Assembly (NCBI GenBank): GCA_023666265.1
Contig: JAMPCH010000022.1
Coordinates: 1-41,462 of the forward strand
Direction of reading: 5' to 3'
Length of the DNA: 41,462 nt
Source of the DNA: Roseburia sp.
GTDB lineage: Bacteria > Bacillota > Clostridia > Oscillospirales > Ruminococcaceae
The notes beneath the pieces were generated by a model. That model saw nothing but the letters and a program-made list of their open reading frames with translations. It was not told the DNA's origin and made no database searches. The position numbers and the translations under genes were made by a program. Of the stretch, positions 8,440 to 41,462 are shown piece after piece. Numbering within the stretch: the first letter of the stretch is position 1; every line of letters begins with the position of its first letter.

Positions 8440-8489
8440 GAACGGGTCTCAACAGGATCGGAACAAGCTCCGAGAAAGGTTTTTATCAT

Positions 8490-9494
8490 ATGGAAAAGAA
8501 AATCAAAGTCTGTCTCTACTCCGAGATGCAAAAGCAGATCGAAAAAAGCGGGGTCGGTCGCGCGATCTATCATCAAAAAAACGCCGCCGCCCTAAACGGG
8601 ATCGAGATCGTCGAGCGGGTCGAGGACGCGGACGTCGTCCATATCAATACTGTCTTTTTTAAGTCGTGGCTCGTCGCCAAGCGGGCGAAAAAGGCGGGGA
8701 AGGCCGTCGTCTATCACGCTCATTCGACCCGCGAGGACTTTCGTAACTCCTATCTCGGCTCAAACCTTTTCTCGGGCTTCTTTCAAAAATGGATCACCTT
8801 TTGTTACTCGCTCGGGGATGTGATCGTGACCCCGAGCGAATATTCAAAAAGCCTTTTACGCGGCTATGGGATCACGAAGGAGATCCGCGTCGTCTCAAAC
8901 GGGATCGACCTCGGCGATTACGTCCGCGACGAGGCGGCGGGGCGGCGCTTTCGCGAAAAATACGGGATACGCCCCGAGGAAAAGGTCGTGATCGGCGCGG
9001 GGCTTATCATCGGGCGAAAGGGGATCGTCGACTTCGTCGAGCTAGCGCGGCGGCTCCCGCAGTATCGCTTTTTTTGGTTCGGGGACTCGAACCTCAATTT
9101 CGTGAGCCGCGCGGTGAGGAGGGCGGCGAAAACGACCCTCCCGAACCTGACCTTCGCGGGCTATGTCGATAAGGCGGCGCTTAAAGAGGCGCACTGTGGG
9201 AGCGATCTTTTCCTCTTCCCCTCCTTTGAGGAGACCGAGGGGATCGTCGTCCTCGAGGCGCTCGCGCTCAAAACGCCCGCGCTCCTGCGGCGGATCGCGG
9301 TCTATGACGGCTGGCTCGCGGAGGATCGCGACGTTTATATGGCGGGCGACCTCGACGAGTTTCAGCGTAAGATCACCGATATTCTCGAGAAAAAGAGCCC
9401 CGACTTGACCGAGAGCGGCTATCGCGTCGCCGAGTCAAAGCGGATCGAGGACGTCGGGCGGGCGCTCGCCGAGATCTATCGCTCGCTCGGATAG
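8490..9494 (+). CDS. GT4-family glycosyltransferase, probably glycolipid-forming
   Basis: This 334-residue GT-B enzyme has an N-terminal acceptor domain with YHAHSTREDFRNSY, then TPSEYSKSLLRGYG and RVVSNGIDL at the linker. The C-terminal nucleotide-sugar domain has GAGLIIGRKGIVDFVE and the EX7E element EETEGIVVLEALALKTPAL. It most resembles 1,2-diacylglycerol 3-glucosyltransferases, which put glucose on membrane diacylglycerol to make lipoteichoic-acid anchors; the acceptor is inferred. The start follows GAGAAAGG. It is downstream of the abi gene with a 50-bp gap and may be read from the same promoter. Immediately after the stop lies the TTTTTATTTTGGGAAGG junction motif. Confidence 0.82.
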   Translation: MEKKIKVCLYSEMQKQIEKSGVGRAIYHQKNAAALNGIEIVERVEDADVVHINTVFFKSWLVAKRAKKAGKAVVYHAHSTREDFRNSYLGSNLFSGFFQKWITFCYSLGDVIVTPSEYSKSLLRGYGITKEIRVVSNGIDLGDYVRDEAAGRRFREKYGIRPEEKVVIGAGLIIGRKGIVDFVELARRLPQYRFFWFGDSNLNFVSRAVRRAAKTTLPNLTFAGYVDKAALKEAHCGSDLFLFPSFEETEGIVVLEALALKTPALLRRIAVYDGWLAEDRDVYMAGDLDEFQRKITDILEKKSPDLTESGYRVAESKRIEDVGRALAEIYRSLG

Positions 9495-9558
9495 ACCTGT
9501 TCTGTTTTTATTTTGGGAAGGCGTGCGGTGCGGCACATCACGAAAAGGGGGGAGTCAG

Positions 9559-9717
9559 ATGACCGACGAGGAATTTAACGAGATGATGGCGGAAAGTCTC
9601 GCGCAGGCGAAAGCGGGACAGGGCGAGAATATGGAGATCGTATTTGATCGGCTGGAAAAAATGTTGGAGCATCAAGCGGGATCGACCGAACAGCCGAAAA
9701 AAGAACTTGGGTTTTAA
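9559..9717 (+). CDS. Small RelB-like protein (antitoxin C-terminal half-like)
   Basis: This is a 52-residue protein behind a very strong GGGGGGAG ribosome binding site. The sequence TDEEFNEMMAESLAQAKAG, followed by VFDRLEKML, resembles the C-terminal toxin-wrapping half of RelB/DinJ antitoxins (EEF...KAG...VF..L). The ribbon-helix-helix DNA-binding half is missing and no toxin gene is adjacent. It could be a truncated antitoxin, a stand-alone regulator or a decayed remnant. The strong ribosome binding site argues that it is expressed. The family assignment is my reading of a short pattern, so confidence is limited. Confidence 0.5.
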   Translation: MTDEEFNEMMAESLAQAKAGQGENMEIVFDRLEKMLEHQAGSTEQPKKELGF

Positions 9718-9861
9718 TTAGCGAAGAAGCGCGACCCGGCGGGATCGCGGCACGAGAACTTCCGCTTTCGCCCGCGTTCGCCGCTTTACCGCGTACCTTC
9801 GGGATCGGTCGCGCCCGCCCGGCTCGCGTTCCTCCGCCGAAAAGACCCCTTCCCAAAAAAG

Positions 9862-9931
9862 AAAAAACGACCCGCCGAGGCGAGCCGTTTTTTTGGTGTC
9901 AGACCTCCTCGGGAACTTCCGAGGTGGTCTG
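9862..9931 (-). terminator. Double hairpin terminator after the beta-helix lipoprotein
   Basis: Directly after the lipoprotein stop (minus strand) is a perfect stem of CAGACC/GGTCTG and CCTCGG/CCGAGG (9900-9931). It is followed by AAAAAACG...CGTTTTTT (9862-9893), whose T-run runs into TTTTTTGGGAAGG. It would also stop plus-strand transcripts from the small RelB-like gene. Confidence 0.8.
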
Positions 9932-11542
9932 CTATTTTAAGACCGTCCCGTCCGCGAGCGTGATCGTATAGCCGTTAAAGTCGATCTCGCCGCGATTGTC
10001 GACCGAGGTCACGGTACAGTCGCCCGTCAGCGTCCACACGCTCCCGCTCTCGATCGTGACCGTGAGGTTATCGGCGACCGCCGCCCCGCCCTGTTCGTTT
10101 TTGACGATGTTGAGCGTCCCGGTGAAGGCGCTGTTCCCCGCGAGGGTCAGGTCGAGCGTCGAGACGTCGTCGACGACGATGTCGCCCGCGAGCGTCTGTC
10201 CGTCGGCGACGACGGTCGCCTGACCGCCGTTCGCCCCCGCCGTCCCCCAGCCGCGCTTGGCGCTGTTCCCCACGACGCGTAGGAGGTATCCGCCGCCTTC
10301 GTTGACGAGTTCGACCCCCGAGAGACGGATCGTACAGCGCGTATTCGTCACATAGATCATATCGCCGTTTCGCGAGACGATCCGCCCGCCCGTCGCGGAG
10401 AAGGAGGACGTCCCGACGTCGGCGTCGCCCGACATCGACTGATAGATCATAATGTTATGGACGTTCTCGTCCGAGCTCGTCCCGTGAGTATCGCTCATAT
10501 TCCCCGAAACGTCGCAGTCCTCGAGCGCGATCGCGTTCTTTCCCTCGATGACGAGCGCCTCGGAGTTATTCGCGGTCAGCGCCGCGCCCTTTACGGTGAT
10601 GTCCGCCGTCGAGTATACGGCGGGCGAGTTATAGCCGTTCGTCGTATAGCTCCCGCCCGTGACCGTGACCGTCCCGCCGCCTCGGTCGGAGCGGATCGCC
10701 GCCGCCGAGCTTCCCGAGGTCTCGATCTCGAGATCGGTCGCGACGGTCGTCCCGCCGCCCGTCGTCTGGATCCCGCCCGAGTTATCCGCCTCGGTCACGA
10801 TCCTTGTGTCGGAGACCGTGACCGTCGTCCCGCTCCCATAGCTAAAGATCCCGTTCCCGTTTTGGGCGGAGGAATGAATTTCGGAATTTTTGATCGTGAC
10901 CGTCGCGCCGTTCGTGGCGAGGACGGCGGCGTTCATCCCGTAAAAATCGCCGTCCTCGGTGTTCGACGAGCTGCCGGCGGATTTATCGACCGTGATCCGC
11001 TCAAGCGCGACCGTCGCGCCGTCGATCCTCAGGGCGTTCTCGTCGTCGCCTTTTGAGAAGTAGTCGCTGTCGGCGATCTCGCTGTCCGTATCGACGGTAT
11101 TCGCGGACGTTCCCTGTTCGATATTCCCCGAGCCGCCGAAGCCGCCCATACCGCCCTCGCCGGGTTTATCGGGCGGCGTCCCGCCCGAAGGAGCGTTCCC
11201 GTCGGGAGGAGTGCCCCCGCCGAAGCCCGTATCCCCGTCGGGCTTGTCGGGCGGCGCCTCCCCGTCGGGAGGTGTACCTCCCTCGAAGTCCGTATCCCCT
11301 TCGGGTCGATCGGGCGGCGTTTCGCCGTCCGAGGGCGCTCCCCCGTCGGGGAGGTCGGGCGGAAGGTCGTCGTCGGGCGTTTTTTCGTCCTCGTCCGCCT
11401 CGCCGCCGTCCGCGACGGCGGCTTGGGTCGTCGTGAGAGCGCTGTCGTCGGTCGAAGCCGCTTCGCCCGAACAGGCGGCGGTCGTCAGCATGATCCCCGC
11501 CATACAAAGCGCGAGGATCGTATATTTACTTGTTTGTTTCAT
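9932..11542 (-). CDS. Exported lipoprotein with Pro/Asp/Gly-rich linker and right-handed beta-helix
   Basis: This is a 536-residue surface protein. The signal peptide ends in the lipobox LTTAAC with Cys24. Residues about 50-145 are low-complexity repeats based on GGTPPDGEAPPDKP. The rest (about 165-536) is beta-rich, Gly/Thr/Asn-rich and repetitive (for example NGATVTIKNSEI, GGTTVATDLEI, GGTVTVTGGSYTTNG), which fits a parallel beta-helix such as polysaccharide-binding or pectate-lyase-like folds. No catalytic residues can be assigned. The ATG at 11542 follows GGAGGT by seven bases; the longer open frame to 11611 lacks such a site. It is a single gene ending at a double terminator. The linker resembles those of wall-spanning proteins. 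Confidence 0.8.
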   Translation of the reverse strand: MKQTSKYTILALCMAGIMLTTAACSGEAASTDDSALTTTQAAVADGGEADEDEKTPDDDLPPDLPDGGAPSDGETPPDRPEGDTDFEGGTPPDGEAPPDKPDGDTGFGGGTPPDGNAPSGGTPPDKPGEGGMGGFGGSGNIEQGTSANTVDTDSEIADSDYFSKGDDENALRIDGATVALERITVDKSAGSSSNTEDGDFYGMNAAVLATNGATVTIKNSEIHSSAQNGNGIFSYGSGTTVTVSDTRIVTEADNSGGIQTTGGGTTVATDLEIETSGSSAAAIRSDRGGGTVTVTGGSYTTNGYNSPAVYSTADITVKGAALTANNSEALVIEGKNAIALEDCDVSGNMSDTHGTSSDENVHNIMIYQSMSGDADVGTSSFSATGGRIVSRNGDMIYVTNTRCTIRLSGVELVNEGGGYLLRVVGNSAKRGWGTAGANGGQATVVADGQTLAGDIVVDDVSTLDLTLAGNSAFTGTLNIVKNEQGGAAVADNLTVTIESGSVWTLTGDCTVTSVDNRGEIDFNGYTITLADGTVLK

Positions 11543-11740
11543 TGGGATTACCTCCGTTTTAGTGTCCTCATTGTACCGCGAAAGTATGGAAATCGCGTGA
11601 AAGACGCGCATTTGATTGCCGAAAGGTGCTTGAAAATCGGGTCGCGGGGAGGTGTATGCCGTTGAACAAACGGTGAAAAAGAAAAAAAGCGATCCCGTAT
11701 GATCGGCGACCGACGGGGAGAACCCTTCCCCAAAAAAGAA

Positions 11741-11770
11741 AAAAGACGGCTCTCGCGAAGCCGCCTTTTT
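11741..11770 (-). terminator. Terminator of the GH26 gene
   Basis: AAAAGACGGCT and AAGCCGCCTTTT pair around CTCGCG ten bases after the GH26 stop. On the minus strand the stem is followed by TCTTTTTTCTTTTTTGGGGAAGG, combining a T-run with the recurring GGGAAGG motif. Confidence 0.85.
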
Positions 11771-11779
11771 GATCTCATT

Positions 11780-12907
11780 TTATTTTTTTAGGATCGCGAG
11801 CGCACGCTCGGCGGCGGGCGCGCCGCTCTTTTTACCCGCCATTAGGATCAGCGCCGCTTTTTTGAGGATCGCGGCGGCGGGGGCGGTATCAGCCGCCTCT
11901 TTTTTTGAGGAGGCGGTACGGATCGGGTAGCTCTTGGGAAGCTCGTCGAGGGTGATGACCCGCTCGTCGTTATAGACGCTCGTGAGGAGCTTCGCGTCAT
12001 TCGCCTTGATATAGTCGGTATGCCAGATCATAAACCACGACCAGAGCGCGTTATCCTTCTCAAAGCGATCGATCGGCGGGACCTGTCCGCATTCGTGGAA
12101 CGCGAGGGGCTTCCCCGTCCCGAGCTTTTCGAGCTTTTGATAGCCGTTCGCGTGGGTCGAGTTGTCGTAGGTGTCCGACCCGATGATGTCACAATATTCG
12201 TCCCCGGGATACCAGCCGCTCTTGACCTCGCCCGAATAGCCGAGTACCCAGATCAGGTTCGTCAGCCCGAAATCGTCGGTGAACCGATCGTACATCATTC
12301 GCCAAAGGCGGATAAAGTTATCTCCTCCGCCCTTCCCCCACCAAAACCAGCCGCCGTCAAATTCGTGAAAGGGTCGCCACAGGACGGGGATACCCGCGTC
12401 GCGAAGCTCGGCGAGCGCCGCCGCCGCTTTGTCCCAGTTCTCGAGCATTTTCTCCTGTTCGACCGTCCCCTCGGTGAAAAGCTTCTCAAAATCGGGCTTA
12501 TCGCCAAGCGATTCTTGATATCCCTTCCCGTTGATCCCGGTATGCCAACAGATCGTGACGAGACCGCCCTTTTTATGCCAAGCCTTGGCGCGCTCGACGA
12601 CGCCGTTAAAGTCGTCGTTCATAAAGTCGAGCCCGCGTATGGCGGGGAGCTTCCCCGTCGTTTTTTCGATGTAGTCCATCTCATAATCGGGGCTTCCCAT
12701 CCATGTGCTTTCCTGTTGACAGGAGAGCATGACCGACCCAAAGCTCTCACAGAGATAGTCATAGACCCCCTGCGTCGCCTCGTCGGCGTTCGGGTTCGAG
12801 AGCGGCGTCGCGCTTTTCGCGGCGGCGGAGGCGGGAACGTCAAAGCCCGTCATAGCGGTAAAAAGGATCAGTCCCGCCATCGCGAGCGCGGTCAATTTTT
12901 TAAACAT
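11780..12907 (-). CDS. Secreted GH26 beta-mannanase
   Basis: This 375-residue enzyme has a signal peptide ending near VPASAAA (residue 30). The GH26 fold is clear from WRPFHEFDGGWFWWG, with the acid/base Glu182, and AFHECGQ, with the nucleophile Glu272. The upstream ICWHTG and LIWVLGYSG blocks are also family-typical. It should hydrolyse beta-1,4-mannans outside the cell. The final 40 residues are an Ala/Lys-rich tail with two similar AAxxILKK segments, not a recognisable dockerin or carbohydrate-binding module. The start follows GAAAGGACG. A 56-residue gene lies 20 bp upstream on the same strand, sharing a consensus promoter. Confidence 0.93.
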   Translation of the reverse strand: MFKKLTALAMAGLILFTAMTGFDVPASAAAKSATPLSNPNADEATQGVYDYLCESFGSVMLSCQQESTWMGSPDYEMDYIEKTTGKLPAIRGLDFMNDDFNGVVERAKAWHKKGGLVTICWHTGINGKGYQESLGDKPDFEKLFTEGTVEQEKMLENWDKAAAALAELRDAGIPVLWRPFHEFDGGWFWWGKGGGDNFIRLWRMMYDRFTDDFGLTNLIWVLGYSGEVKSGWYPGDEYCDIIGSDTYDNSTHANGYQKLEKLGTGKPLAFHECGQVPPIDRFEKDNALWSWFMIWHTDYIKANDAKLLTSVYNDERVITLDELPKSYPIRTASSKKEAADTAPAAAILKKAALILMAGKKSGAPAAERALAILKK

Positions 12908-22097: not shown

Positions 22098-23057
22098 ATG
22101 GTATCGGTCATTATCCCCGCTTATAACGAGGAAGAGAATATCGCCCACACCGCCGAGGTCGTCGGGGGGATCTTAAAAAAAGCCGCGATCCCCTATGAGC
22201 TTTTATTCGTCGACGACGGCTCGCGCGACGCGACATGGGAGCGGATCGCGCGGCTCGCGGCGGAGGACGGCGCGATCCGGGGACTTCGCTTTTCGCGGAA
22301 TTTCGGGAAGGAGGGCGCGATTTTCGCGGGACTTTCCGCCTGCGTCGGCGACGCGGCGGTCTGTATCGACTGTGACCTCCAACACCCGCCCGAGCTGATC
22401 CCAAAGATGGTCGCTCTCTGGGAGGAGGGCTATGAGGTCGTCGAGGCGGTCAAGGCGGATCGGGGGAAGGAGGGCTTCCTCTACCGTTTTTTCGCCAAGG
22501 GCTTTTATCGGATCATGAAAAATTCCTCCGACGTTAATCTCGACCGCGCGAGCGACTTTAAGCTCCTCGACCGTAAGGCGATCGACGCGCTCGGCGAGAT
22601 GCCCGAGCGGCTGACCTTTTTTCGCGCCCTCTCGAGCTGGATCGGCTTTCGGACGGCTCAGGTCGAGTTCACCGTCGCGCCGCGTAACGCGGGGGAGACG
22701 AAATGGAGCTTTAAAAAGCTCTTTCGCTTCGCCTTAAACAATATCACGAGCTTTACCAACCTCCCGCTCCAGCTCGTGACGGGGGCGGGCGTGATCTTCC
22801 TCGCGATCGCCGTCGTTTTCGGCGTCCAGACGCTCGTCAATTACTTCAGCGGGACGGCGCGCGAGGGCTTCTCGACCGTGATCCTCTTGATCCTTTTGAC
22901 GGGGTCGTTTTTGATGCTCGGGCTCGGCGTGATCGGCTATTATATGGCTAAAATTTATGAGGAGATCAAGTTTCGCCCGCGCTATATCGTCGCGGAGGAC
23001 ACAAGCTCCGACAAAAATAAAAATAAAAAAGAAAACAAAGGAAAGGAAGAAGCATAA
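22098..23057 (+). CDS. GT2 polyprenyl-phosphate glycosyltransferase (CsbB/GtrB-like)
   Basis: This 319-residue GT-A enzyme moves a sugar from a nucleotide sugar to undecaprenyl phosphate. It has VSVIIPAYNEEENI, FVDDGSRDATW (nucleotide-binding Asp), CIDCDLQHPPELIPKM (DXD-like metal site) and APRNAGETKWSFKKLF. Two C-terminal membrane helices follow (about 235-258 and 270-295), then a Lys-rich tail. The next gene, YfhO, begins three bases later. CsbB-YfhO and GtlA-GtlB pairs glycosylate lipoteichoic acid in Bacillus and Listeria, so this pair probably decorates a wall or membrane polymer. The sugar is unknown. Confidence 0.9.
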   Translation: MVSVIIPAYNEEENIAHTAEVVGGILKKAAIPYELLFVDDGSRDATWERIARLAAEDGAIRGLRFSRNFGKEGAIFAGLSACVGDAAVCIDCDLQHPPELIPKMVALWEEGYEVVEAVKADRGKEGFLYRFFAKGFYRIMKNSSDVNLDRASDFKLLDRKAIDALGEMPERLTFFRALSSWIGFRTAQVEFTVAPRNAGETKWSFKKLFRFALNNITSFTNLPLQLVTGAGVIFLAIAVVFGVQTLVNYFSGTAREGFSTVILLILLTGSFLMLGLGVIGYYMAKIYEEIKFRPRYIVAEDTSSDKNKNKKENKGKEEA

Positions 23058-23060
23058 GCT

Positions 23061-25919
23061 ATGGATAGGAAAACTCCTCTCGGCTGTCTGAAGAGCGGGC
23101 TAAAGCGCTTTTTTATCACGGACTTTCAGTACCCGCTCTCGTTCGCGATCCCGGCGCTGATCCTCCTCCTCGCGTATTTTATCTTCGGCGTTTATCCTTT
23201 TGGGAAGGAATCCGTCCTCTCGCTCGACCTAAACGGTCAATACGTCTATTATTACGACTATATGTACGACGTTTTCGCGGGGAAGGAGAGCGTTTTTTAC
23301 AGCTGGAGCAGGAATCTCTCGGGCGAGTTTATGGGGATCGTCGGCTATTATCTCGGGAGTCCCTTTAACTTCCTCGTTTGGGCTTTTCCCCGCGAGATGA
23401 TCACCGAGGGCTTACTGACCATGCTCGTGACGAAGGTCGGGGCGATCGGGCTTTGTACGAGTATCTACTTCCGCCGTGGGAAGGGCTTTCGCCCCCTCAC
23501 CTGTATCGTCTTTTCGGCGAGCTACGCGCTTTGCGCCTATACGATGGTACAGACGATGAACCCGATGTGGCTCGACGGGGTGATGATCCTCCCGCTGATC
23601 GTCTATGGGATCGAGAAGCTGATCGACGAGGGGAAATTCGTCATGCTCACGATCTCGCTCGTCTACGCCTTTGTGACCTGTTTTTATATCGGCTTTATGA
23701 TCGCGATCTTTTCGGCGATCTACTTCCTCTATTACGCGGTCGTCTCTCATAAAAAGGGGATGGCGCGGCTTTTTATCGAGCGGGGCTTTCTCTTTACCGG
23801 GGTCGCCGCCGTCTCGACGATGATGTCAATGTATATGCTCCTCCCGGTCTATCACTCGCTCTCGTATGGGAAATTCGACTTCTCCGAGCCGGATTACAGC
23901 TCGGTCTATACTAATTTTGACCTGATCGAGCTTCTCGATAAGATGTTCCCGCTGACCTATGATACGGTGAGGATGTCGGGGCTTCCCTTCCTCTATTGCG
24001 GGACGCTCGTGCTTCTGTTTCTCCCCTGTTACTTTTTCCTTAAAAAGATCAGGGGAAGGGATCGGATCGGCGGGGCGGCGATCCTCTCGATCCTCTGTCT
24101 CTCGATGTATATCTGTCAGGTCGATATGCTCTGGCACGGCGGACAGCTCCCGAACTGGCTGCCCTATCGTTACAGCTTTATGGTCTCGTTTTTAATGGTC
24201 GCCTTCTCGGCGCGGGCGTTTGACGCGCTAGACGAAGTACCGAAAAAGCATATCGCCCTCGCGGCGCTCGCGTGGTTCGCCGTCCTCCTTTGGATCGAGA
24301 AACAGGATAACTATCTCGACGACATCAGCCGCGACACGATGGATAGCCTCCAGGTCATTCTCCCGGCGGCGGCGATCCTCTTTATCGTCGCGGCGGTCAC
24401 GGTACAATTTAAGAATAAGCTCCGTCGAAAGGGGATCGCCGTGATCTTTGTGACGGTGATCTCGCTCGAAATTTTCGCGAATACCTTCGTCCAGCTCATT
24501 CGCCAAGACCTCGACATCGTTTATTCGACCCGCCCCTCTTACGTCGACGTGATCGTCCCGACCCGCGAGGTCGTCGATCGGATCAAGGCGGAGGACGACG
24601 GATTTTATCGGATCGAAAAGACTTACTTCCGTACCGTGAACGATCCGCTCGCCTGTGGGATGTATGGGCTGTCGCATAGCTCGAGTACCCTCAACGCCAA
24701 GCCGATCGAGCTTCTCTCGCGGCTCGGCTTCACCTCGCGGAGCCACTATACCCGCTATTCGGGCGCGACCGAGATCACAAAGAGCCTTTTCGGGGTCAAG
24801 TATGAGCTGTCCTGTCCCGATAACAGCACCTCGGAGATCGAGTCGGCGGACGACATCACCGTCACCGAGAACCTCTATTATCTCCCGCCCGCTTATCTCG
24901 TCGATAAGCGCGTCGAGGACTTAGAGCTATCGGCGACCGAGCCGCTCAGAAATCAGAATATGCTGCTCGCGGCGATGCTCGGGCGGGCGACCGACGGCGT
25001 GAGCGACGACGACTATTTTAAGCGGATCATCGACGACGTAGACCTCGAGCTCACGAACGTCACCCAGGGGAAGACGACCGACGGTCACCACAGCTTTAAA
25101 AAGATCGAGCCGAACCTCAATACCGAGCTCGTCTATACGCTCGAGATGCCCGAGACGTCGGCGCTCTATATGTACCTCCCCTCGCGCTATGAGCGGACGG
25201 TGAACGTATGGCTCAACCGCGAGATATTCCTCGGGACGTATTTTGAGGGCGATAATAACAGTATTATGAAGATCGGTGATTTTGAGAAGGGCGAGTCGGT
25301 CACGATCGGGCTGACCCTCACCCGCGACGATCTCTACTTCCGCGAGGCTCAGTTCCTCTATTGTGACCATGAGGCGATCGGGCGCGATCTCGGCGAGCTG
25401 ATCGATAAGAACCGCGACACCACGGTCGAGCGCACCTCGCCGACGTCGCTCAAGATCACGGTGAACGCCGCCGAGGACGGTCTCGTCTTTACGAGCGTCC
25501 CGGTCGAGAGGGGGTGGACGATCCTCGTCGACGGGGCGGAGGTCGAGTATGTCGAGCTTCTCGACGCGCTGATCGGTGTACCGGTCGGGGCGGGCAGCCA
25601 CACGATCGAGATGAAATTTGTAACGGCGGGCTACCCGACCGCGCTCATCATTACGGGCGAGGGGCTTATCCTCTTTATCGCGATGATCCTCGTCGCTCGC
25701 TTCCTCAAGCGTAAAAGCGCCAAAAAAGCGGCGCTCGCCGAGATTGACGATCCTTCGGCGGAGGGCGCGGAGACGGCGGCGGCGGTCGAGAACCAAAGCC
25801 AAAGCCATACGCTCACGGAGGAGGGCTTCGCGAACGCGGCTTTCCCCGACGGCGGCGAAGGCGAGGAGATCTCGGACGATATGGAGGACGCGCCGCCCCC
25901 GGACGAAGGAAATCGATAG
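23061..25919 (+). CDS. YfhO-family membrane glycosyltransferase
   Basis: This 952-residue GT-C-type protein has about 12-13 membrane helices in its first 470 residues. The early extracytoplasmic loop carries LDLNGQYVYYYDYMYDVFAGKESVFYSWS, which holds the acidic pair expected of the catalytic loop. A large soluble domain (about 490-850), a last helix (about 855-875) and an acidic Glu/Asp-rich cytoplasmic tail follow. YfhO proteins transfer sugars from undecaprenyl phosphate to lipoteichoic acid on the outer face. It starts three bases after the GT2 gene that would make its donor. A MITE copy lies immediately downstream. Confidence 0.9.
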   Translation: MDRKTPLGCLKSGLKRFFITDFQYPLSFAIPALILLLAYFIFGVYPFGKESVLSLDLNGQYVYYYDYMYDVFAGKESVFYSWSRNLSGEFMGIVGYYLGSPFNFLVWAFPREMITEGLLTMLVTKVGAIGLCTSIYFRRGKGFRPLTCIVFSASYALCAYTMVQTMNPMWLDGVMILPLIVYGIEKLIDEGKFVMLTISLVYAFVTCFYIGFMIAIFSAIYFLYYAVVSHKKGMARLFIERGFLFTGVAAVSTMMSMYMLLPVYHSLSYGKFDFSEPDYSSVYTNFDLIELLDKMFPLTYDTVRMSGLPFLYCGTLVLLFLPCYFFLKKIRGRDRIGGAAILSILCLSMYICQVDMLWHGGQLPNWLPYRYSFMVSFLMVAFSARAFDALDEVPKKHIALAALAWFAVLLWIEKQDNYLDDISRDTMDSLQVILPAAAILFIVAAVTVQFKNKLRRKGIAVIFVTVISLEIFANTFVQLIRQDLDIVYSTRPSYVDVIVPTREVVDRIKAEDDGFYRIEKTYFRTVNDPLACGMYGLSHSSSTLNAKPIELLSRLGFTSRSHYTRYSGATEITKSLFGVKYELSCPDNSTSEIESADDITVTENLYYLPPAYLVDKRVEDLELSATEPLRNQNMLLAAMLGRATDGVSDDDYFKRIIDDVDLELTNVTQGKTTDGHHSFKKIEPNLNTELVYTLEMPETSALYMYLPSRYERTVNVWLNREIFLGTYFEGDNNSIMKIGDFEKGESVTIGLTLTRDDLYFREAQFLYCDHEAIGRDLGELIDKNRDTTVERTSPTSLKITVNAAEDGLVFTSVPVERGWTILVDGAEVEYVELLDALIGVPVGAGSHTIEMKFVTAGYPTALIITGEGLILFIAMILVARFLKRKSAKKAALAEIDDPSAEGAETAAAVENQSQSHTLTEEGFANAAFPDGGEGEEISDDMEDAPPPDEGNR

Positions 25920-25937: not shown

Positions 25938-26165
25938 TGGCAACACCGCACAATTACCGCTCACGCTTTGCCGTCCGATTGGCAGCCATCTTTTCCGCCA
26001 TATCGCGCAGAATTTTTTTGAAAGGCGTCTCTGTCGGTCAACCCCTCTGTCGGCTACGCCGACACCTCCCCCGCCCGGGGGAGACCACCTTCCTGCAAAA
26101 ATTCTGAACAATCTGACGAAAAATCTGATTGCCACTCGAACGACAATAATTGCGCGGTGTAGCCA
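25938..26165 (+). mobile_element. Palindromic MITE-like element, copy 2 (228 bp)
   Basis: Termini are TGGCAACACCGCACAATTA and the complement of TGGCTACACCGCGCAATTA, each flanked by TA. Compared with copy 1 it holds an extra 55-bp insert (26037-26092) with CCCCTCTGTC and CTCCCCC...GGGGGAG hairpins. It fills the gap between yfhO and coaX and leaves only 30 bp before the coaX start, so it may supply or block coaX transcription. Confidence 0.82.
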
Positions 26166-26195
26166 TAAAAAATAACAACAAAGAAAGGGACAAAA

Positions 26196-32529: not shown

Positions 32530-33060
32530 GCGGGGCTTTGCCCCGCAAGCAAGGATGCTTGCAGGCGAACGCCCAAAGCGGCGCACGGCAATACCTCTAG
32601 CCGTAGGGACGCGCCGCAAACAGAGCGTTCGCCCGAACCCAACTGCCAAATGGAAATGGCGAAAACCTTTGTTTTGCGCGGCGTCCGTGCCGCGCCTTGG
32701 GGGTTTTCGCTCCCGACATCCTGTCGGAATTTCCTTTGGAATCCTTTGTACCCATTGTTACCCTTCTTCTGACTTCTACTTTACTGCCTGTCAGGTCGTG
32801 AAATTGCGGAGAACGGCGCTAAATTTACGCAAATGTGAAAAAGCAAAGTCTCCCTTTTCCCATTGCTACTCTCTGCGTTTTCGACCTTGCGGCTGTCAGG
32901 TCGTGAGATTTGCTAAAGCGGCGCTAAATTTACACAAGTGCGAAAAAGCAAAGTCTCCTGTACCCATTGCCACTCTCTGCGTTTTCGACCTTGCGGCTGT
33001 CAGGTCGTGAGGTTTGTTAAAGCGGCGCTAAATTTATGAAATTGCGAGTAAAACGAAATA
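32530..33060 (+). repeat. Gene-free stretch with 104-105 bp tandem repeat
   Basis: GTCAGGTCGTGA begins at 32790, 32895 and 32999, so the unit is 104-105 bp in about 2.5 copies. Each copy carries AAAGCGGCGCTAAATTTA, AAAAAGCAAAGTCTCC and CTCTGCGTTTTCGACC. Before it are a GCGGGGCTTTGCCCCGC hairpin (32530-32546) and assorted short palindromes. There is no credible gene; longest frames are broken or lack a ribosome binding site. Confidence 0.75.
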
Positions 33061-33087
33061 TATCCTAAGCACGAAAGAAGAATTTTT

Positions 33088-34548
33088 ATGGAAAAAAAGA
33101 AAAAGCCAAAAAAGGAAACGACCAAGCCCCTTCGCCCGATCTTCGCGATCGGGAATATCGTCTATACCTCGATCTTTTTCGGGCTGACGGCGGTCGCGCT
33201 CCTCGTCCTCCCGCGCTCGGAGCAGTCTCAGATCGAGAAGCGCGACCTCGCGGAGTTTCCCGAATTTACGTGGGAGGACTTTTTAAACGGGAATTATACC
33301 GCCGGGATCGCGGAGTATTACGACGATACCGTCCCCTATCGCGATTCGCTCAAAAACGCCGCCGTCGTGATCAAGAGCGCCTACGGCGTCCCGCTCGACG
33401 ATACCGAGATCCACGGTCAGCTCGTCGCCGTGACCGAGCCGCCCGTCGTGACCGCCCCGCGCCCGAAGGAGACGACCTCGGCGAGTACGACCTCTTCGGC
33501 GAAGGAGTCCGCGCCCGCGCTCTCGGAGGACGCGCCCGTGACGACGACCGCGCCCCCCGTGACGACGACGACCCCCGCGACCACCTCGGCGCGACAGGTC
33601 AACGAGATCGCCGAGGGAGTCATCACCAACGGACAGGTCGTCACAAAGCTCGCCGACGGTCATTATCGGGGGATCTCGCTCTTTGGCGGAGGCGCGGGGA
33701 CGGTCTACGCCGAGACGCTCAACCGCCTCCACGCCGAGCTGGGCGACGAGGTGACGGTCTATTCGATGGTTGTCCCGACGGCGGGGGAATATTACCTCCC
33801 CGATAAATACGACGCGTATAACGCGAGCCACGCGGCGTTTATCGATAAGATCAACGCCCAGCTCGACCCCGCCGTCGTCCCCGTCGACGCGGTGACCGCC
33901 CTCGCCGCCCATACCGACGAGGAAATTTATACCCGTACCGACCACCACTGGCAGCCGCTCGGCGCGTATTACGCGGTCGAGGCGTTCACGGCAGCGGCGG
34001 GCGTACCCTTCGCCCCGCTCGAGCGCTATGAGAGGGTCGTCGTCGACGGCTATATCGGGACGATGTATACCTATACCGAGAGCGCGCTGATCCTAAACGA
34101 CCCGGAGCAGTTCGTCTATTATAAGCCCTCGAACGACTACACGACCTATTACTATGATACGGCGTATAACTTTGACTACGAGTTCCCGCTTTTCGTCGCC
34201 CAGCCCGTCGAGTCGTCGTACTCGACCTTTATGGGCGGGGACAGGAAGATCGTAAGGATCGAGACGGACGTTAAAAACGGGCGAAAGCTCCTCATCTTTA
34301 AGGACAGCTACGGGAACGCGGAAATCCCCTTCCTTACCTCCTCGTTTGAGGAAATTTACGTATGCGATATGCGCTGGTTCGACCTGAACCCGGCGGAATT
34401 TATCAAGGAGCAGGGGATCACCGACCTTCTCGCGACGATGTGTTCCTTCTCGGCGACGGGACCGAACGCGGAAAGCTTCGCCGCGAAGCTCGACAACCCG
34501 ACGCGGGCGGGAAATACGACCGTCGCGCCCGAGGGGGAGACTTCATGA
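33088..34548 (+). CDS. DHHW-family exported protein (SGNH/AlgX-like), first of two
   Basis: This 486-residue protein has a Lys-rich N-terminus and one membrane helix (about 18-42). A Thr/Pro-rich linker (120-170) leads to a catalytic-looking domain. RTDHHWQPLGAYYA (DHHW at 285-288) and FKDSYGNA (Ser407) match the His and nucleophile Ser of the DHHW/AlgX SGNH-like family, known from alginate and wall-polymer acetylation. The membrane anchor puts it outside the cytoplasm, where it probably transfers or removes an acyl group on a polysaccharide. The stop overlaps the next start (ATGA). The start follows GAAAGAAG. Identity of the acceptor is unknown. Confidence 0.83.
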   Translation: MEKKKKPKKETTKPLRPIFAIGNIVYTSIFFGLTAVALLVLPRSEQSQIEKRDLAEFPEFTWEDFLNGNYTAGIAEYYDDTVPYRDSLKNAAVVIKSAYGVPLDDTEIHGQLVAVTEPPVVTAPRPKETTSASTTSSAKESAPALSEDAPVTTTAPPVTTTTPATTSARQVNEIAEGVITNGQVVTKLADGHYRGISLFGGGAGTVYAETLNRLHAELGDEVTVYSMVVPTAGEYYLPDKYDAYNASHAAFIDKINAQLDPAVVPVDAVTALAAHTDEEIYTRTDHHWQPLGAYYAVEAFTAAAGVPFAPLERYERVVVDGYIGTMYTYTESALILNDPEQFVYYKPSNDYTTYYYDTAYNFDYEFPLFVAQPVESSYSTFMGGDRKIVRIETDVKNGRKLLIFKDSYGNAEIPFLTSSFEEIYVCDMRWFDLNPAEFIKEQGITDLLATMCSFSATGPNAESFAAKLDNPTRAGNTTVAPEGETS

Positions 34549-35834
34549 GAAAATATCGTTTTTCCCTTTTATTTACGGCACTTTTGTTTGCGGCTTGCGG
34601 CTGCTCCTCCGGGGCTTCGGCGAGCGACGCGCCCGTGACCTTTCGTACCGTCCGTACCGAGGGGATCAGCGCGTATACGACCGTCTTCGCCTCGGAAACG
34701 GCGGAGACACAAGCCCCGCCCGTTTCGCCGGTCTCGGCGGTCTCGGCGGTCTCAAAAATCACGCGCCACTACGAGACGACCATTCCCGAGACGCTCGTCG
34801 GCGGCTTCTCCGAAGCGCCGAAAACGACCGAGGTCGAAGGAGGCTCGCGGGGAAGCGCGCCTTCCCAAAAGGAAACGACGACAAAGGCGGCGACGGACGC
34901 GGTCACGGCGAACACGCCCGATCTCGGGTATACGCCCGAATACGCCGAGATCGGCGGGGACGGGATCCTCGTCATTCGCCGCTCGGACGGGCATTATCTC
35001 GGGCTGATGCCCTGTTGGGGGACATACTCGCTCTGTGAGAGCTGGGCGGCGAGCGTGAACGAGCTAAAGCGGTGCTTACCCGACGTAAACGTCTATCATG
35101 CGGTGATCCCGACCTCGAGCGAGTTTTACGTCCCCGACGGCTTCTCCGGCTTTACCGCGAGCCAAAAAAATAAGATCGACCACGTCGCCGAGCGGCTCGA
35201 GGACGTCGCGAACGTCGATATGTATTCCGCCGTCGCCGCCCATACCGCCGAGGCGATCTACGCCCGGACGGATCACCACTGGCTGCCGCTCGGGGCATAC
35301 TACGCGGCGGAGGCGTTCGCCGCCGTCGCGGACGTACCCTTCCCGCCGCTCTCCGACTACGCGGCGGTCGAGGCGGACGGCTACGTCGGCTCGCTCTACG
35401 GCTATTCAAAGGACGCGCATTTAAGGGACGACCCCGAGGTCTTTACCCTCTACCTTCCGCCGAATAAAGCCGCGCTCGCGACCGAGTATTATGACCGCGC
35501 CTTCGCGAACGGCTACGCGAGCGAGCTTTTCCCCGCCCCCGACGGGAGCGCGTATTATTGCTCCTTCCTCGGCTCGGACGATCGGATCGCGCGGATCGCG
35601 ACCGACGTAAATAACGGGCGAAAGCTCGTGATCTTTAAGGAGAGCTATGGGAACGCGCTCGTACCCTTCCTGACCTCCTCGTTCGAGGAGATCTATGTCT
35701 GCGATATCCGCTATTTCGACCTGAACGCCGCCGAGTTTTGTTCCTCCGTCGGCGCGACCGACGTCCTCGCCGCCGTCTGTACCTATACCGCCGCCGGCAC
35801 AAACGGGAATTATCTTAAACGAATTTTGACGTGA
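34545..35834 (+). CDS. DHHW-family lipoprotein, second of two
   Basis: This 429-residue paralogue of the preceding gene is anchored differently: a lipobox LFAAC gives lipidated Cys18. Residues 40-125 are a Ser/Thr/Val-rich linker. The domain keeps RTDHHWLPLGAYYA (DHHW at 243-246) and FKESYGNA (Ser367), plus the same closing block SSFEEIYVCDIRYF. Both candidate catalytic residues are intact, so neither copy looks degenerate. The ATG overlaps the upstream TGA, giving translational coupling. Near residue 105 the coding sequence includes CCTTCCCAAAAG, similar to the intergenic junction motif. Confidence 0.82.
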   Translation: MRKYRFSLLFTALLFAACGCSSGASASDAPVTFRTVRTEGISAYTTVFASETAETQAPPVSPVSAVSAVSKITRHYETTIPETLVGGFSEAPKTTEVEGGSRGSAPSQKETTTKAATDAVTANTPDLGYTPEYAEIGGDGILVIRRSDGHYLGLMPCWGTYSLCESWAASVNELKRCLPDVNVYHAVIPTSSEFYVPDGFSGFTASQKNKIDHVAERLEDVANVDMYSAVAAHTAEAIYARTDHHWLPLGAYYAAEAFAAVADVPFPPLSDYAAVEADGYVGSLYGYSKDAHLRDDPEVFTLYLPPNKAALATEYYDRAFANGYASELFPAPDGSAYYCSFLGSDDRIARIATDVNNGRKLVIFKESYGNALVPFLTSSFEEIYVCDIRYFDLNAAEFCSSVGATDVLAAVCTYTAAGTNGNYLKRILT

Positions 35835-36187
35835 GAGAGATTTATAAGAGAAAAGCACTATCAGCGGGGGCTTTGCCCCCGAACCCCTACTTCCTTTTGT
35901 GCCAAAAGGAAGCGAAAATCAATATTGCTTTATTATGATCTCATCAAATTCGCTAAATTGTAAGATGATCCGATTTTTTGAGTTTAATTTTTTAAAGCGA
36001 AGGGAAGCAGTCATTTTACAGAAAACTTGCCTAAAGATTATTAAAGTTTAGGTCAAGCCTTTTCAAAGGCTTGCAGGGGGTTCGGGGGACAGAGTCCCCC
36101 GCTGTAAATATATTTTTTCTCAAAAAGTCTCATAAAATCTCTCAAAAAGTCTCATAAAAATCTCAAAAAAACAGAAAGGGAAGGCAA
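35835..36187 (+). repeat. Intergenic palindromic repeats before fkbH
   Basis: The left part has GAGAGATTTATAAGAGA and the CGGGGGCTTTGCCCCCG hairpin (35863-35879). The right part has AAGTTTAGGTCAAGCC, CCTTTTCAAAGG, CGGGGGACAGAGTCCCCCG (36082-36100) and tandem CTCATAAAATCTCTCAAAAAG units. The right-hand block recurs inverted at 38231-38375 and direct at 38540-38590. No gene is present. Confidence 0.7.
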
Positions 36188-37990
36188 GTGAAGGATCTTT
36201 TTTCATATCCGTTTGACGCGGGGCTATTACTGAAAAAGCAGAAGAGCCTCAAAAAGCAGCTAAAGGGCGACGGTCGGGAGCGAACGCCCGTAAGGATCGC
36301 GATCCTAAGCGGCTCGACGGCGGACGCGGTACGCGATCAGCTCGAGCTGTTTCTCTTAAACTACGGGCTTGAGCCGTCGTTTTATCTCTCGGAATACGGG
36401 AAATATTGGGAGGACGCGATGTTTCCGCCGGAGACGCTTATCGAATTTTCGCCCGATCTCGTCTACTTTCACACGACGTATCGGAATATCGAATACTTCC
36501 CGACGCTCGCGGAAACGCCCGAGGCGGTCGAGAAGGGGATCGACGGGGAAATTCTCCGCTATAAGGCGATGTGGGAGAGCGTCCGTGACAAGCTCGGCGC
36601 GGCGGTCATACAGAATAACTTTGAGCTTCCGCCGTTTCGCCTCCTCGGGAATATGGACGCGTCCGACCCGCACGGGCGGGTACGGACGGTCGACGAGCTG
36701 AACCGCCGCTTCGCGGAGTACGCCGCGAGCGAAAAGAGCTTTTACCTAAACGACCTTCGGTACATCTCCGCCTGTTACGGGCTGGATCGATGGGCGGACA
36801 GCGCGGCGTGGCTTCTCTATAAATACGCGCTCGCGCTCCCCGCGATACCCTTTCTCGCGGCGAACCTCGCGGCGATCGTCAAGGCGATCTATGGGAAAAA
36901 CAAAAAAGTCCTCGCGCTCGACCTCGACAACACGCTTTGGGGCGGCGTGGTCGGCGACGACGGGGTCGAGGGGCTAAGGCTCGGAAGGGATCTCCCGGCG
37001 GGTCAGGTCTATTCCGAGTTTCAGGAGTACGTTAAGCTCCATAAGGATCTCGGGGTGCTTTTGACCGTCTGTTCCAAAAACGACGCCGCGAACGCGCTCG
37101 CGGGGCTAGCCCACCCGGACAGCCTCCTAAAGCCCGACGATTTCACCGTGATCAAGGCGAACTGGGAGAACAAGGATCGGAATTTAGCCGAGACGGCGGC
37201 GGAGCTGAACCTTCTCACCGAGAGCTTTGTTTTCGCGGACGATAACCCCGCCGAGCGTGAGATCGTCCGCGAACAGCTCCCCGGGACGGCCGTCCCCGAG
37301 CTGACCGCGCCGGAGGAGTATATCCGCGTCCTCGACCGAAACCGCTACTTCGAGACCGTCTCGCTCTCGGCGGACGATCGCGAGCGCGGCGAAATGTACC
37401 GCGCGAACGCGGCGCGGGCGGCGCTCGAAAAAACCTATGCCGACTATGGCGAATATCTCGACGGGCTATCCATGACGGCGGAAATTATGCCCTTCGCCCC
37501 GCCCTATCTCGGGCGGATCGCCCAGCTCACGAATAAGAGCAACCAGTTCAATTTAACCACCCGCCGCTATACCGAGGCGGAGATCACGGCGATCGCGGAC
37601 GATCCGGAAAGGATCGCGCTTTACGGGCGGCTCTCCGACCGCTTCGGCGATAACGGCGTGGTCGCGGTCGTGATCGGGCGGGTCGAGGGCGAAGCGCTCC
37701 ACCTCGACCTTTGGCTGATGAGCTGTCGCGTATTAAAGCGGGAAATGGAGCTCGCTATGCTCGACGAGGTCGTAAGACGGGCGAAGGAGCGGGGGATCGC
37801 GAAAATTTTCGGCTATTACCGCCCGACCGCGAAAAACGGTATGGTGAAGGAGCTTTATGGGGACTTCGGCTTTAAAAAGGTCGCGGAGAGCGAGGAAGAA
37901 ACGGTCTGGAAGCTGGCGGTCAACGATCACTTCCCCAAGACGAAGCATATCACGGTCACGCACGACTGCACTGAAGGAAAGGACGGATAA
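36188..37990 (+). CDS. FkbH-type HAD-IIIC protein with GNAT-like acyltransferase domain
   Basis: This 600-residue protein begins with an SGNH/BryA-like region (about 35-225). The FkbH HAD domain starts at LALDLDNTLWGGVVGDDG (Asp245, Asp247), with VCSKND and FADDNPAEREIV. The C-terminal acyltransferase-like part has the conserved LMSCRVLKRE (Cys513), which in FkbH proteins carries the acyl group before transfer. Characterised members load a glyceryl unit from 1,3-bisphosphoglycerate onto an acyl carrier protein. An ACP gene follows three bases later. The start is GTG behind AGGGAAGG. The substrate here is inferred; it could be another phosphorylated hydroxyacid. Confidence 0.88.
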   Translation: MKDLFSYPFDAGLLLKKQKSLKKQLKGDGRERTPVRIAILSGSTADAVRDQLELFLLNYGLEPSFYLSEYGKYWEDAMFPPETLIEFSPDLVYFHTTYRNIEYFPTLAETPEAVEKGIDGEILRYKAMWESVRDKLGAAVIQNNFELPPFRLLGNMDASDPHGRVRTVDELNRRFAEYAASEKSFYLNDLRYISACYGLDRWADSAAWLLYKYALALPAIPFLAANLAAIVKAIYGKNKKVLALDLDNTLWGGVVGDDGVEGLRLGRDLPAGQVYSEFQEYVKLHKDLGVLLTVCSKNDAANALAGLAHPDSLLKPDDFTVIKANWENKDRNLAETAAELNLLTESFVFADDNPAEREIVREQLPGTAVPELTAPEEYIRVLDRNRYFETVSLSADDRERGEMYRANAARAALEKTYADYGEYLDGLSMTAEIMPFAPPYLGRIAQLTNKSNQFNLTTRRYTEAEITAIADDPERIALYGRLSDRFGDNGVVAVVIGRVEGEALHLDLWLMSCRVLKREMELAMLDEVVRRAKERGIAKIFGYYRPTAKNGMVKELYGDFGFKKVAESEEETVWKLAVNDHFPKTKHITVTHDCTEGKDG

Positions 37991-37993
37991 ACA

Positions 37994-38230
37994 ATGAAAG
38001 AGATCTATGAACGCCTCACGGACGTATTCCGCGAATTTTTTGACGACGACGAGATCGAGATCGACGCGGAGACGACCGCCGACGACATCGACGACTGGGA
38101 CAGCCTCAACCATATCACCCTTATGGCGGCGGTCGAGGACGAATTCGGAATCCGCCTCTCTATGGGCGAGGTCTCGGGTCTCGATAACGTCGGCGCTCTC
38201 GCCGAGATCATTAAACGGAAGATTTTTTAA
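37994..38230 (+). CDS. Acyl carrier protein
   Basis: This 78-residue acidic protein has the phosphopantetheine site WDSLNHI (Ser35) in place of the fatty-acid DSLD motif. The rest (FREFFDDDEIEIDAET, EDEFGIRLSMGEVSGLDNVGALAEII) is a normal four-helix ACP. It lies three bases after the FkbH gene and is its likely partner. DSLNH is typical of dedicated, non-fatty-acid carriers. The ribosome binding site is GAAAGGA. Confidence 0.93.
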   Translation: MKEIYERLTDVFREFFDDDEIEIDAETTADDIDDWDSLNHITLMAAVEDEFGIRLSMGEVSGLDNVGALAEIIKRKIF

Positions 38231-38672
38231 GAGATTTAGTGAGAGAATTTTAAGAGATTTTATGAGAGAATAAAAGAGAAATAAAGAGATTTAAAGAGAA
38301 CGATAATATGTAGCGGGGGACGCTGTCCCCCGAACCCCCTGCAATCCTTTGAAAAGGGTTGACCTAAACTTTAATATTGCTTTTGATAGGTCGCTCAAAA
38401 AGAAAGTATGCTGATTTTCGGCGATTTTGGGTTCAAATCACACAATCAATTGGCAATCAATGTTCTTCCTTTTAAATCGCAAGAGCGCACAAAATTGCCT
38501 TTTTCACAAAACCTGTTGAAAGTTTATAAAAGTTTAGGTCAAGCCTTTTCAAAGGCTTGTGGGGTACGGGGCGAAGCCCCGCTTAAATATTGTCATTCTT
38601 TAAATCTCTTTAAATCTCTTTAATTCTCTTTTATTCTCTCTTAAAAATCTCTCAAAAAATCTTTCAAAAAAA
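38231..38672. repeat. Large imperfect palindrome after acp
   Basis: Left arm: tandem GAGATTT/GAGAATTTTAAGAGATT units, GCGGGGGACGCTGTCCCCCG, CCTTTGAAAAGGG and GACCTAAACTTT. Right arm (38540-38672): AAAGTTTAGGTC, CCTTTTCAAAGG, CGGGGCGAAGCCCCG and CTCTTTAAATCTCTT repeats, ending AAAAATCTCTC. The arms are reverse complements overall and the middle (38390-38535) is AT-rich. No gene is supported here. Confidence 0.72.
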
Positions 38673-40451: not shown

Positions 40452-41462
40452 TTATTCGGGAATATATTTTCGGATCACGCTTTCGGGGACACCGTCCGCT
40501 CTCATTCGCTCTGCCATTGCGGCTCTTTCCTCGGCTCTCCCTTCCTCTCTCCCTTTGGCTCTGCCTCTCACCTCGCCTCTTGCTTCGCCTATTTCTATCC
40601 CTTCCTCTCTTGCCCCGTTTAAAAGGGAAGCCTCATCATGGAGTGCCTTTTCTCTGATCCAAGCGACCTCGCGCATTTTTGCGTCCTCGCTCATATCATA
40701 GATCACCTTGACCGCTTTTTTCATGATCGGTACGTTTGTTTGTTCCAGCATCTCAAAATCCTCCTCCTTATCGGCGTTGATGAATTGTAACCAAAGCTCT
40801 CGTTGGTCGCTTAAGGCAACACCGCACAATTACCGGCTACGCCTTTGCCGTCCCATCGACAGCCATCTTTTCCGCCATATTGCACAGAATTTTTTTGAAA
40901 GGTGATCTCCCCCGGGCGGGGGAGGTGTCACGCAGTGACAGAGGGGCTGACCGACAGATCAGCCTTCCTGCAAAAATTCTGTACAATCTGACGAAAAATC
41001 TGACTGCCGCTGGAACGACAATAATTGTGCGGTGTAGCCTTAAATTCGGCGTTTTACCGATCTTTTTCAGCTCAAAAAAGTGGATGGCGAATTTATCGGA
41101 GAATACCTCGCCCGTCCCCTTGATGATCGCCGCGACCTCGGTATGATAATCTTTCCCCTCGAACATATTGAAGTTCACGATATTGATCGTGATCGTCTGT
41201 TTCAGATCGCGGTAGTTTTCCCCGCTTTTCAGCTCCGAAGCATACAGCTTCGCCCAGTAGAATAATGTCCGATCGCGGAAGTCCGGCTGATTCTTCATCT
41301 GAATTTCCACATTGACGAGCTTATCGTCCACCTGAAGGCTCAGGTCTAAGCGACTGAACTTCCCGTCCAAGGTCTCGGGCGGAAGCTCGGGGTTCGTGAC
41401 CGTAATGGAGCGGATACGCTCCTCCGGGATCGACAGCATACAAGATATGTTTGAAAAATCAA
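40452..41462 (-). pseudogene. Rpn/PD-(D/E)XK nuclease-family transposase gene, split by a MITE and cut by the window edge
   Basis: The N-terminal part (41462 to about 41043) has ITVTNPELPPETLDGKFSRLDL, VNVEIQMKN (the E-x-Q of the PD-(D/E)XK site) and RTLFYWAKLYASEL. It ends FFELKKIGKTPN, and then enters the inserted element (40814-41040) and stops at 40837. The C-terminal part (from about 40812) starts LSDQRELWLQFINA and ends IRKYIPE at 40452. The frame stays open to the window end (DFSNISC before MLSIPEE), so the true start is outside. These Rpn proteins promote RecA-independent recombination or act as nucleases. The gene is inactive as one polypeptide. Confidence 0.88.
40814..41040 (-). mobile_element. 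Palindromic MITE-like element, copy 3, inside the Rpn gene (227 bp)
   Basis: The ends AGGCAACACCGCACAATTA and the complement of AGGCTACACCGCACAATTA are flanked by TA on both sides (within TTAA). It carries the same CTCCCCC...GGGGGAG and GTCACGCAGTGAC nested hairpins as copy 2. Deleting it with one TA restores a continuous Rpn frame. Confidence 0.88.

Follow-up and report, generated by a model that had tools for sequence, protein, structure and literature searches.

A tandem-DHHW, FkbH and carrier protein gene cluster from Roseburia as part of a probable carrier-fed envelope acylation pathway

By what route could an acyl group leave the cell when an acyl carrier protein (ACP), a putative loader for it and two putative outer acyltransferases are encoded side by side, with no membrane acyltransferase gene among them? 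This question is raised by positions 33088-38230 of a 41,462-nucleotide stretch of DNA from Roseburia sp. (Ruminococcaceae; contig JAMPCH010000022.1 of assembly GCA_023666265.1), hereafter the window, which is the entire contig C14 of the genome (G000; 2.8 Mb, 98 contigs, 99.8% complete). The cluster encodes two SGNH-type proteins of the DHHW family, an FkbH-type protein and an ACP. We conclude that the window probably holds four of the five parts of an ACP-fed envelope acylation pathway that combines a membrane-bound O-acyltransferase (MBOAT) with SGNH-type partners, the fifth part, the MBOAT, being encoded on contig C23. The basis computed here is the gene content, the intact residues, the clade of the MBOAT, the co-occurrence of the parts and the distribution of an N-terminal segment of the outer enzymes, which we call the dock. 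The original prediction for this DNA was of acyl decoration of the envelope that depends on an ACP, probably loaded by FkbH, a proposal that our results support.

Gene content and catalytic residues

The first gene of the cluster (33088-34548, + strand) encodes DHHW1, a membrane-anchored putative acyltransferase of 486 amino acids, which matches the DHHW profile PF14286 with 178.9 bits (gathering cut-off 25). It overlaps by 4 nucleotides with the gene for DHHW2 (34545-35834, + strand), a lipoprotein and putative acyltransferase of the same type with 429 amino acids, which scores 132 bits and covers profile positions 153-384 only. After a gap of 353 nucleotides, partly filled by one arm of an inverted repeat, follows the gene for an FkbH-type putative ACP loader (36188-37990, + strand; 600 amino acids, GTG start; TIGR01686, 287.4 bits against a cut-off of 146.65). 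Three nucleotides further on lies the gene for a dedicated ACP (37994-38230, + strand; 78 amino acids; PF00550, 30.6 bits against 20.8) with the phosphopantetheine site DSL.

Both DHHW proteins score above the gathering cut-off and contain the TDHHW, K[DE]S and DxR blocks of the family. The serine motif reads FKDSYGNA in DHHW1 and FKESYGNA in DHHW2, and the triad of DHHW2 lies within RTDHHW and KESY. By alignment, the DHHW1 triad consists of Asp285 (33940-33942), His287 (33946-33948) and Ser407 (34306-34308), all on the + strand, accompanied by the oxyanion-type Arg429; none of these four positions varies among 11 aligned DHHW proteins, DHHW2 included. In PatB1, the matching blocks are described as KDS, DXRY and TDHHW (PMC9487903). 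The anchors of the two proteins differ: the strongest hydrophobic stretch before the core of DHHW1 begins at residue 24, with no lipobox called, and DHHW2 has the lipobox FAAC with Cys18. Thus, the four genes, their place and order, both anchors and the intact DHHW and serine motifs all turned out as originally described. The closest solved DHHW protein to DHHW1 is EUBSIR_00411 of [Eubacterium] siraeum (PDB 4nzk; phmmer E 7.6e-105), which is named in PMC9487903 and, according to that paper, has not been characterised biochemically; PatB1 (5v8d) matched DHHW1 with E 7.1e-9.

The HAD motif DLDNT of the FkbH protein (Asp245 and Asp247), which conforms to DxDxT, and Cys513 in LWLMSCRVLKR are invariant in 10 aligned FkbH proteins, and our guess is that Cys513 may be the acyl-bearing residue. 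Among solved structures, phmmer matched FkbH to 3slr (E 8.1e-56) and the ACP to 2lml (E 4.8e-18). The genome gave a single FkbH match at E 0.01. The ACP site pattern fits 112 of 114 collected ACP-like open reading frames, the other two reading WDSY and WDSH.

MBOAT proteins of the genome

A Pfam MBOAT search of the genome revealed two proteins, one on C23 and one on C97. The C23 protein (G000:C23:237-1637, - strand; 467 amino acids; PF03062, 79.3 bits against a cut-off of 27) reads towards a contig end about 230 nucleotides away, and the stretch beyond the gene appears by eye to be a dispersed repeat. It has the catalytic histidine in WHG and a C-terminal FLYWQF, which conforms to FXYXXF. When compared with solved structures at E values up to 1, it matched two DltB sequences only (E ~3e-18). 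Its identity is 66% to the copy of G015, the sole other genome of the same genus in our sample, 51-62% to 12 operonic copies of the family, and 43% to its C97 paralogue. The C97 protein was rejected as partner of the cluster, having its own DHHW gene directly downstream and lying outside the FkbH-linked clade. A PF14286 search of the genome returned three proteins in all, namely DHHW1, DHHW2 and the C97 DHHW; since the last already adjoins the C97 MBOAT and the assembly holds no other DHHW, elimination pairs the C23 MBOAT with DHHW1 and DHHW2.

Among 57 MBOATs of at least 440 amino acids, WHG was present in all 57 and a C-terminal F[LIMF]Y..F in 56; the one without it is truncated at a contig end. 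Since MBOATs of a sister clade and of the C97 type are among those counted, the motif is a mark of MBOAT-SGNH systems generally and not of this one alone. Among other FkbH-linked MBOATs, 29 of 30 end in a looser form of it. In PatA, acylation of an invariant tyrosine in the C-terminal hexapeptide has been shown, and DltX carries an FXYXXF motif whose tyrosine is reported to be acylated (PMC12148441). The shuttle motif FLYWQF of the C23 protein therefore supports an acyl-tyrosine route and counts against a new export path.

The cluster and its MBOAT in related genomes

Relatives were sought in 119 genomes of the family, which represent 118 genera (about one genome per genus) and share descent, so they are not independent. 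FkbH relatives occur in 44 of them, and all 44 loci were retrieved (38 besides the window, then five more). In a wider survey of species genomes with an FkbH alignment, the best 80 of at least 575 relatives were kept. The gene order MBOAT-DHHW-FkbH-ACP was found in 12 of the 38 family loci, where the MBOAT is the one closest to the C23 protein, and in 15 of the 80 wider loci, in two of which a contig end leaves no more than a piece of the MBOAT. An MBOAT linked to the DHHW partner was seen in 12/38 family and 18/80 wider loci (two with a fragment). In the stretches read, 50 of the 80 wider loci hold some MBOAT match, and 45 hold one of more than 400 amino acids. Tandem DHHW genes before FkbH, as in the window, are present in 12 of the 80; an MBOAT gene stands just upstream of the tandem directly in locus L180, and with a separate dock protein between in L141 and L151.

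In an MBOAT tree of 61 rows, the C23 protein and the unlinked MBOATs of tandem-DHHW genomes fall into a 46-row clade with a support of 99 in the SH-like approximate likelihood ratio test (SH-aLRT). This clade includes all 28 MBOATs of more than 400 amino acids from DHHW-FkbH loci. From the 80-locus set, 16 MBOATs scoring above 600 bits with our own profile entered this tree, the other 30 full-length ones being checked for their C-termini only. In every one of the 12 tandem-DHHW genomes a clade MBOAT was present, with 54-81% identity to the C23 protein; those of G126 and G130 are truncated at contig ends, which also hide their neighbours. Where it is unlinked, the MBOAT gene is followed by an aldose 1-epimerase-type gene in G015, G119, G120, G121 and G122 and, one gene further on, in G128 (confirmed by Pfam in G015, G119, G120 and G122, by eye in G121 and G128), and by a DHHW gene in G124 and G127. 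So the MBOAT gene appears to have been separated from the cluster but kept in the lineage of the window.

Counted over the 119 family genomes, and with the MBOAT among the matches listed, the FkbH clade and the MBOAT clade occur together in 18 genomes, FkbH alone in 1, MBOAT alone in 3 and neither in 97 (Fisher p 2.7e-17, a guide only, given the shared descent). Membership of the MBOAT clade was decided by tree for high-scoring matches; lower matches were taken as outside, and short fragments could be missed. G084 and G026 had been candidates for an MBOAT of the clade without FkbH and were rejected, both falling into the sister clade in the larger tree; with them counted in, the figures become 18, 1, 5 and 95 (p 6.6e-16).

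These results bear on several points of the original prediction. Its statement that the system has no MBOAT is correct for the window and wrong for the genome, which has two. Of the two export routes that it offered, an exporter encoded elsewhere gains support from the C23 MBOAT, whose clade sits in this operon in relatives, and an MBOAT-free or otherwise new route is rejected on the same evidence. It had proposed a search of relatives for the tandem cluster with a co-occurring MBOAT, and the 12 tandem loci among 80, with a clade MBOAT in 12/12 genomes, are the outcome; the separate inheritance of the genes that it named as fatal was not observed, though the MBOAT is physically unlinked in this genome.

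As a separate observation, locus L123 (G004, a genome of three contigs) has two identical MBOAT genes at 5554-6969 and 8657-10072, about 3 kb apart.

FkbH classes and the likely cargo

From what is known of the family, the FkbH cargo is probably glyceroyl. FkbH-like proteins with a stand-alone ACP in polyketide synthase systems are described as giving glyceryl-ACP (PMC7489565), and with no modifying enzyme encoded between the genes of the window, unmodified glyceroyl is the simplest cargo. It is possible, if distinctly less likely, that the pathway is the same and the cargo another one, FkbH loading a different small hydroxyacyl group or glyceroyl-ACP being altered by enzymes encoded elsewhere. 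The FkbH family label alone leaves the substrate unfixed, and in polyketide synthase clusters glyceryl-ACP undergoes oxidation and methylation (PMC7489565).

Evidence on this alternative comes from further FkbH-ACP loci in the same bacterial family. A second FkbH-ACP class (L046, L050, L061, L062 and others) continues with genes that we take to be MaoC-like, SDR-like and GNAT-like. Both a MaoC-like and an SDR-like gene were found at 13 of the 15 loci labelled in this way, with profiles built from three of them; L071 has only the MaoC-like gene and L045 neither, each before a contig end. In an FkbH tree of proteins of at least 380 amino acids (the FkbH class of G056 was assigned by best match), the window protein belongs to an 18-row clade with 12 MBOAT-linked members (SH-aLRT 83), and all 15 MaoC/SDR-labelled rows lie outside it. 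The stretches read at the 18 loci of the window's clade contain no MaoC-like or SDR-like gene within 6.5 kb, which speaks against a modified cargo, as does the glyceryl-ACP product described for polyketide systems.

Candidate acceptors

Searches of the genome gave no match to DltD (PF04914; B. subtilis and L. lactis match among 14 controls), to Glyphos_transf (TagF-type) or to the sulfatase family (LtaS-type), in an assembly of 98 pieces where any absence could in principle be a gap. Canonical teichoic acids are therefore unlikely acceptors. One LytR-CpsA-Psr protein is encoded, and so a wall-linked polysaccharide is a possible acceptor. Of the acceptors proposed originally, a wall glycan thus stays in place and teichoic acid is disfavoured; the candidates that remain are peptidoglycan, a wall-linked polysaccharide or another exported glycan.

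A docking segment in the outer acyltransferases

The dock of DHHW1 comprises approximately residues 22-95 (33151-33372, + strand; limits approximate) and consists of the membrane helix followed by EKRDLAEFPEF...YYDDTVPYR. Its distribution was analysed with widened patterns that cover long N-termini. The dock pattern (E.R.LA.FP ... Y.DTVP.R after a membrane helix) is present in 22 of 23 single DHHW proteins and in all four sister-type DHHW proteins without FkbH; of the tandem proteins, 8/14 upstream copies and 0/14 downstream copies have it. A lipobox was called in 1 of 23 single, none of the four sister-type, 5 of 14 upstream and 13 of 14 downstream proteins.

The six upstream copies missed by the pattern fall into three pairs. 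L180 and L193 show, by eye only, a diverged dock. In L141 and L151, as in the single-DHHW exception L043, a separate dock-only protein of 118-124 amino acids with membrane helix and dock is encoded between the MBOAT and lipoprotein DHHW genes (L043 6935-7297; L141 5105-5461; L151 5071-5445). Against PF14286, the L141 protein matches the first 74 profile positions only and the L151 protein the first 56 only, and the L043 protein has no Pfam match. In the genomes of the last pair, L149 and L156, the DHHW adjoining the unlinked MBOAT carries the dock and has aspartate at the place of its catalytic serine (L239 in G124, 5837-7558; L240 in G127, 3575-5272; dock read in L239 only). We infer that the dock keeps the outer enzyme attached to the MBOAT. 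DHHW1 would then be docked, and DHHW2 would serve as a second acceptor or transferase, by analogy with the AlgJ/AlgX pair.

In the DHHW tree (55 rows), the downstream copies of ten tandem loci, that of the window included, form one group (SH-aLRT 100) and the upstream copies of the same ten a separate group (SH-aLRT 94). Two further pairs of tandem loci are placed elsewhere in the tree, so tandem pairs either arose more than once or predate its resolution.

The lack of a dock in DHHW2, shared with all 14 downstream copies examined, would also suit a role as an esterase, by which the acyl group is removed or edited while DHHW1 is the sole transferase, and SGNH proteins do include esterases (PMC9487903). 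We consider this unlikely. DHHW2 retains the triad and the arginine block of the DHHW transferases, and with aspartate in place of the serine in the dock-bearing DHHW beside the MBOAT of G124 and G127, a dock-less lipoprotein would have to carry out the transfer there.

Proposed pathway and points against it

The proposed pathway most likely works like Dlt, and its first three steps are modelled on the published chemistry of relatives. FkbH would form an acyl thioester on the ACP, most likely D-glyceroyl from 1,3-bisphosphoglycerate. The C23 MBOAT would take the acyl group off the ACP arm and transfer it through the membrane to its own FLYWQF tyrosine, from which DHHW1, held at the MBOAT by the dock, would take it on Ser407. 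Finally DHHW1 itself, the dock-less lipoprotein DHHW2 or both may esterify an exported or wall-linked glycan. The cargo, the acceptor, the role of the dock and the division of labour in the last step are what we infer in this scheme.

Several observations weigh against this pathway. The MBOAT and the DHHW-FkbH-ACP cluster lie on different contigs in the genome, so any joint regulation would be hypothetical. FkbH scores 25.2 bits with FkbH_N (PF21211), just under the cut-off of 27, and is thus filed as FkbH-like. The stretches read of the second FkbH-ACP class yielded no MBOAT call, so FkbH and ACP can occur with no MBOAT nearby. Conversely, an MBOAT of the clade without an FkbH of the clade was found in G113 (99% complete), G016 (55% complete) and G108, the last having an ACP-like open reading frame without Pfam match beside MBOAT-DHHW and a divergent FkbH elsewhere. 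In G054, an FkbH of the clade stands beside a very different MBOAT. An earlier, careful MBOAT tree of 35 rows (proteins of at least 400 amino acids) gave the corresponding 21-row group a support of only 92/52; L041 and L059, on long branches there, were left out of the 61-row tree. The inner nodes of the DHHW and FkbH trees often have SH-aLRT values of 81-92, with no bootstrap.

The two long-branched loci, L041 (G054, 6052-10576) and L059 (G079, 7837-12177), both combine FkbH with an MBOAT of a very different kind and with a protein other than DHHW, which is GDSL-like under the cut-off in L041 and without usable Pfam match in L059. They are apparently separate couplings of FkbH with MBOATs.

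That the C23 MBOAT is not used, the acyl group leaving by another exit or FkbH and ACP making an intracellular product with the DHHW genes as chance neighbours, would fit the separate contigs and the MaoC/SDR class, but is very improbable in view of the contiguous operons in relatives, the co-occurrence of 18/1/3/97 among the matches listed, and the proximity of FkbH to other kinds of MBOAT as well (G054 and G079; 45 of the 80 loci with an MBOAT above 400 amino acids).

Beyond this genome, a wider proposal can be made, to which we give an even chance: the ACP-fed MBOAT-DHHW pathway would be a second carrier-fed envelope acylation pathway besides Dlt, spread in gut Clostridia, which draws 1,3-bisphosphoglycerate out of glycolysis to place glyceroyl esters on a wall glycan. 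Its outer transferase would be modular, the dock being joined to the catalytic domain, encoded separately as a protein of about 120 amino acids or carried on a DHHW without catalytic serine, and lipoprotein DHHWs would do the chemistry.

Comparison with known systems

The donor of DltB is a carrier protein. The Dlt system (DltA, DltB, DltC, DltX and DltD), which D-alanylates teichoic acids, shares with the proposed pathway a carrier-protein donor, a membrane MBOAT and an outer SGNH-type protein. It differs in that FkbH here stands for DltA and a DHHW protein for DltD, and in that the shuttle tyrosine is fused to the MBOAT and not carried on DltX. The ACP of the window is not DltC (NF003464, 15.9 bits against a cut-off of 68).

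An MBOAT with an SGNH partner is also found in PatA1/PatB1 of Bacillus cereus, which O-acetylates the secondary cell wall polysaccharide, and in PatA/PatB of peptidoglycan. PatA resembles the C23 protein in its C-terminal hexapeptide motif (PMC12148441), and PatB1 is homologous to DHHW1. PatA, however, uses acetyl-CoA, whereas a dedicated ACP and FkbH accompany the MBOAT-SGNH pair here; MBOAT/SGNH pathways other than Dlt are stated to lack a carrier protein (PMC12148441). CcsHI of clostridial cellulose synthase is likewise a clostridial MBOAT-DHHW pair, but it is tied to a cellulose synthase locus, and its description in PMC7710045 mentions neither FkbH nor ACP. The FkbH-type glyceryl-ACP loaders of polyketide systems share an FkbH domain and a stand-alone ACP with the window (PMC7489565); these feed polyketide synthases, whereas the partners in the window are envelope acyltransferases. 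While the individual parts and the MBOAT-SGNH principle are already known, the combination of an FkbH loader, a dedicated ACP, an MBOAT with fused shuttle and a DHHW protein was not found in the open-licence PMC papers searched.

Other features of the window

An inverted repeat pair (36014-36130 and 38285-38401; 76% complementary over 117 nucleotides) flanks the FkbH and ACP genes, and a tandem repeat of three copies with 104-105-nucleotide spacing (32788-33062) lies just upstream of DHHW1. A dispersed repeat of about 200 nucleotides occurs at 25966-26169 and 40843-41044, with 92-93% identity in the two longest blocks; a stretch resembling it, recognised by eye in translation, is found at the start of contig C23 beside the MBOAT gene. 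At 22098-25919, a GT2-like glycosyltransferase gene (by eye) is followed by a gene for a YfhO protein (PF09586, 591 bits), which may belong to another envelope glycan modification.

Implications

If the proposed pathway is true, Dlt would no longer be the only case of an MBOAT-SGNH pathway fed by a carrier protein, against the general statement in PMC12148441, and the envelope of these bacteria is predicted to carry an ester. The naturally split and fused versions of the dock offer material for dissecting how MBOATs and their SGNH partners meet. Bacteria in which no DltD, TagF-type or LtaS-type protein was found could then tune the charge or stability of their envelope with a hydroxyacyl group derived from glycolysis.

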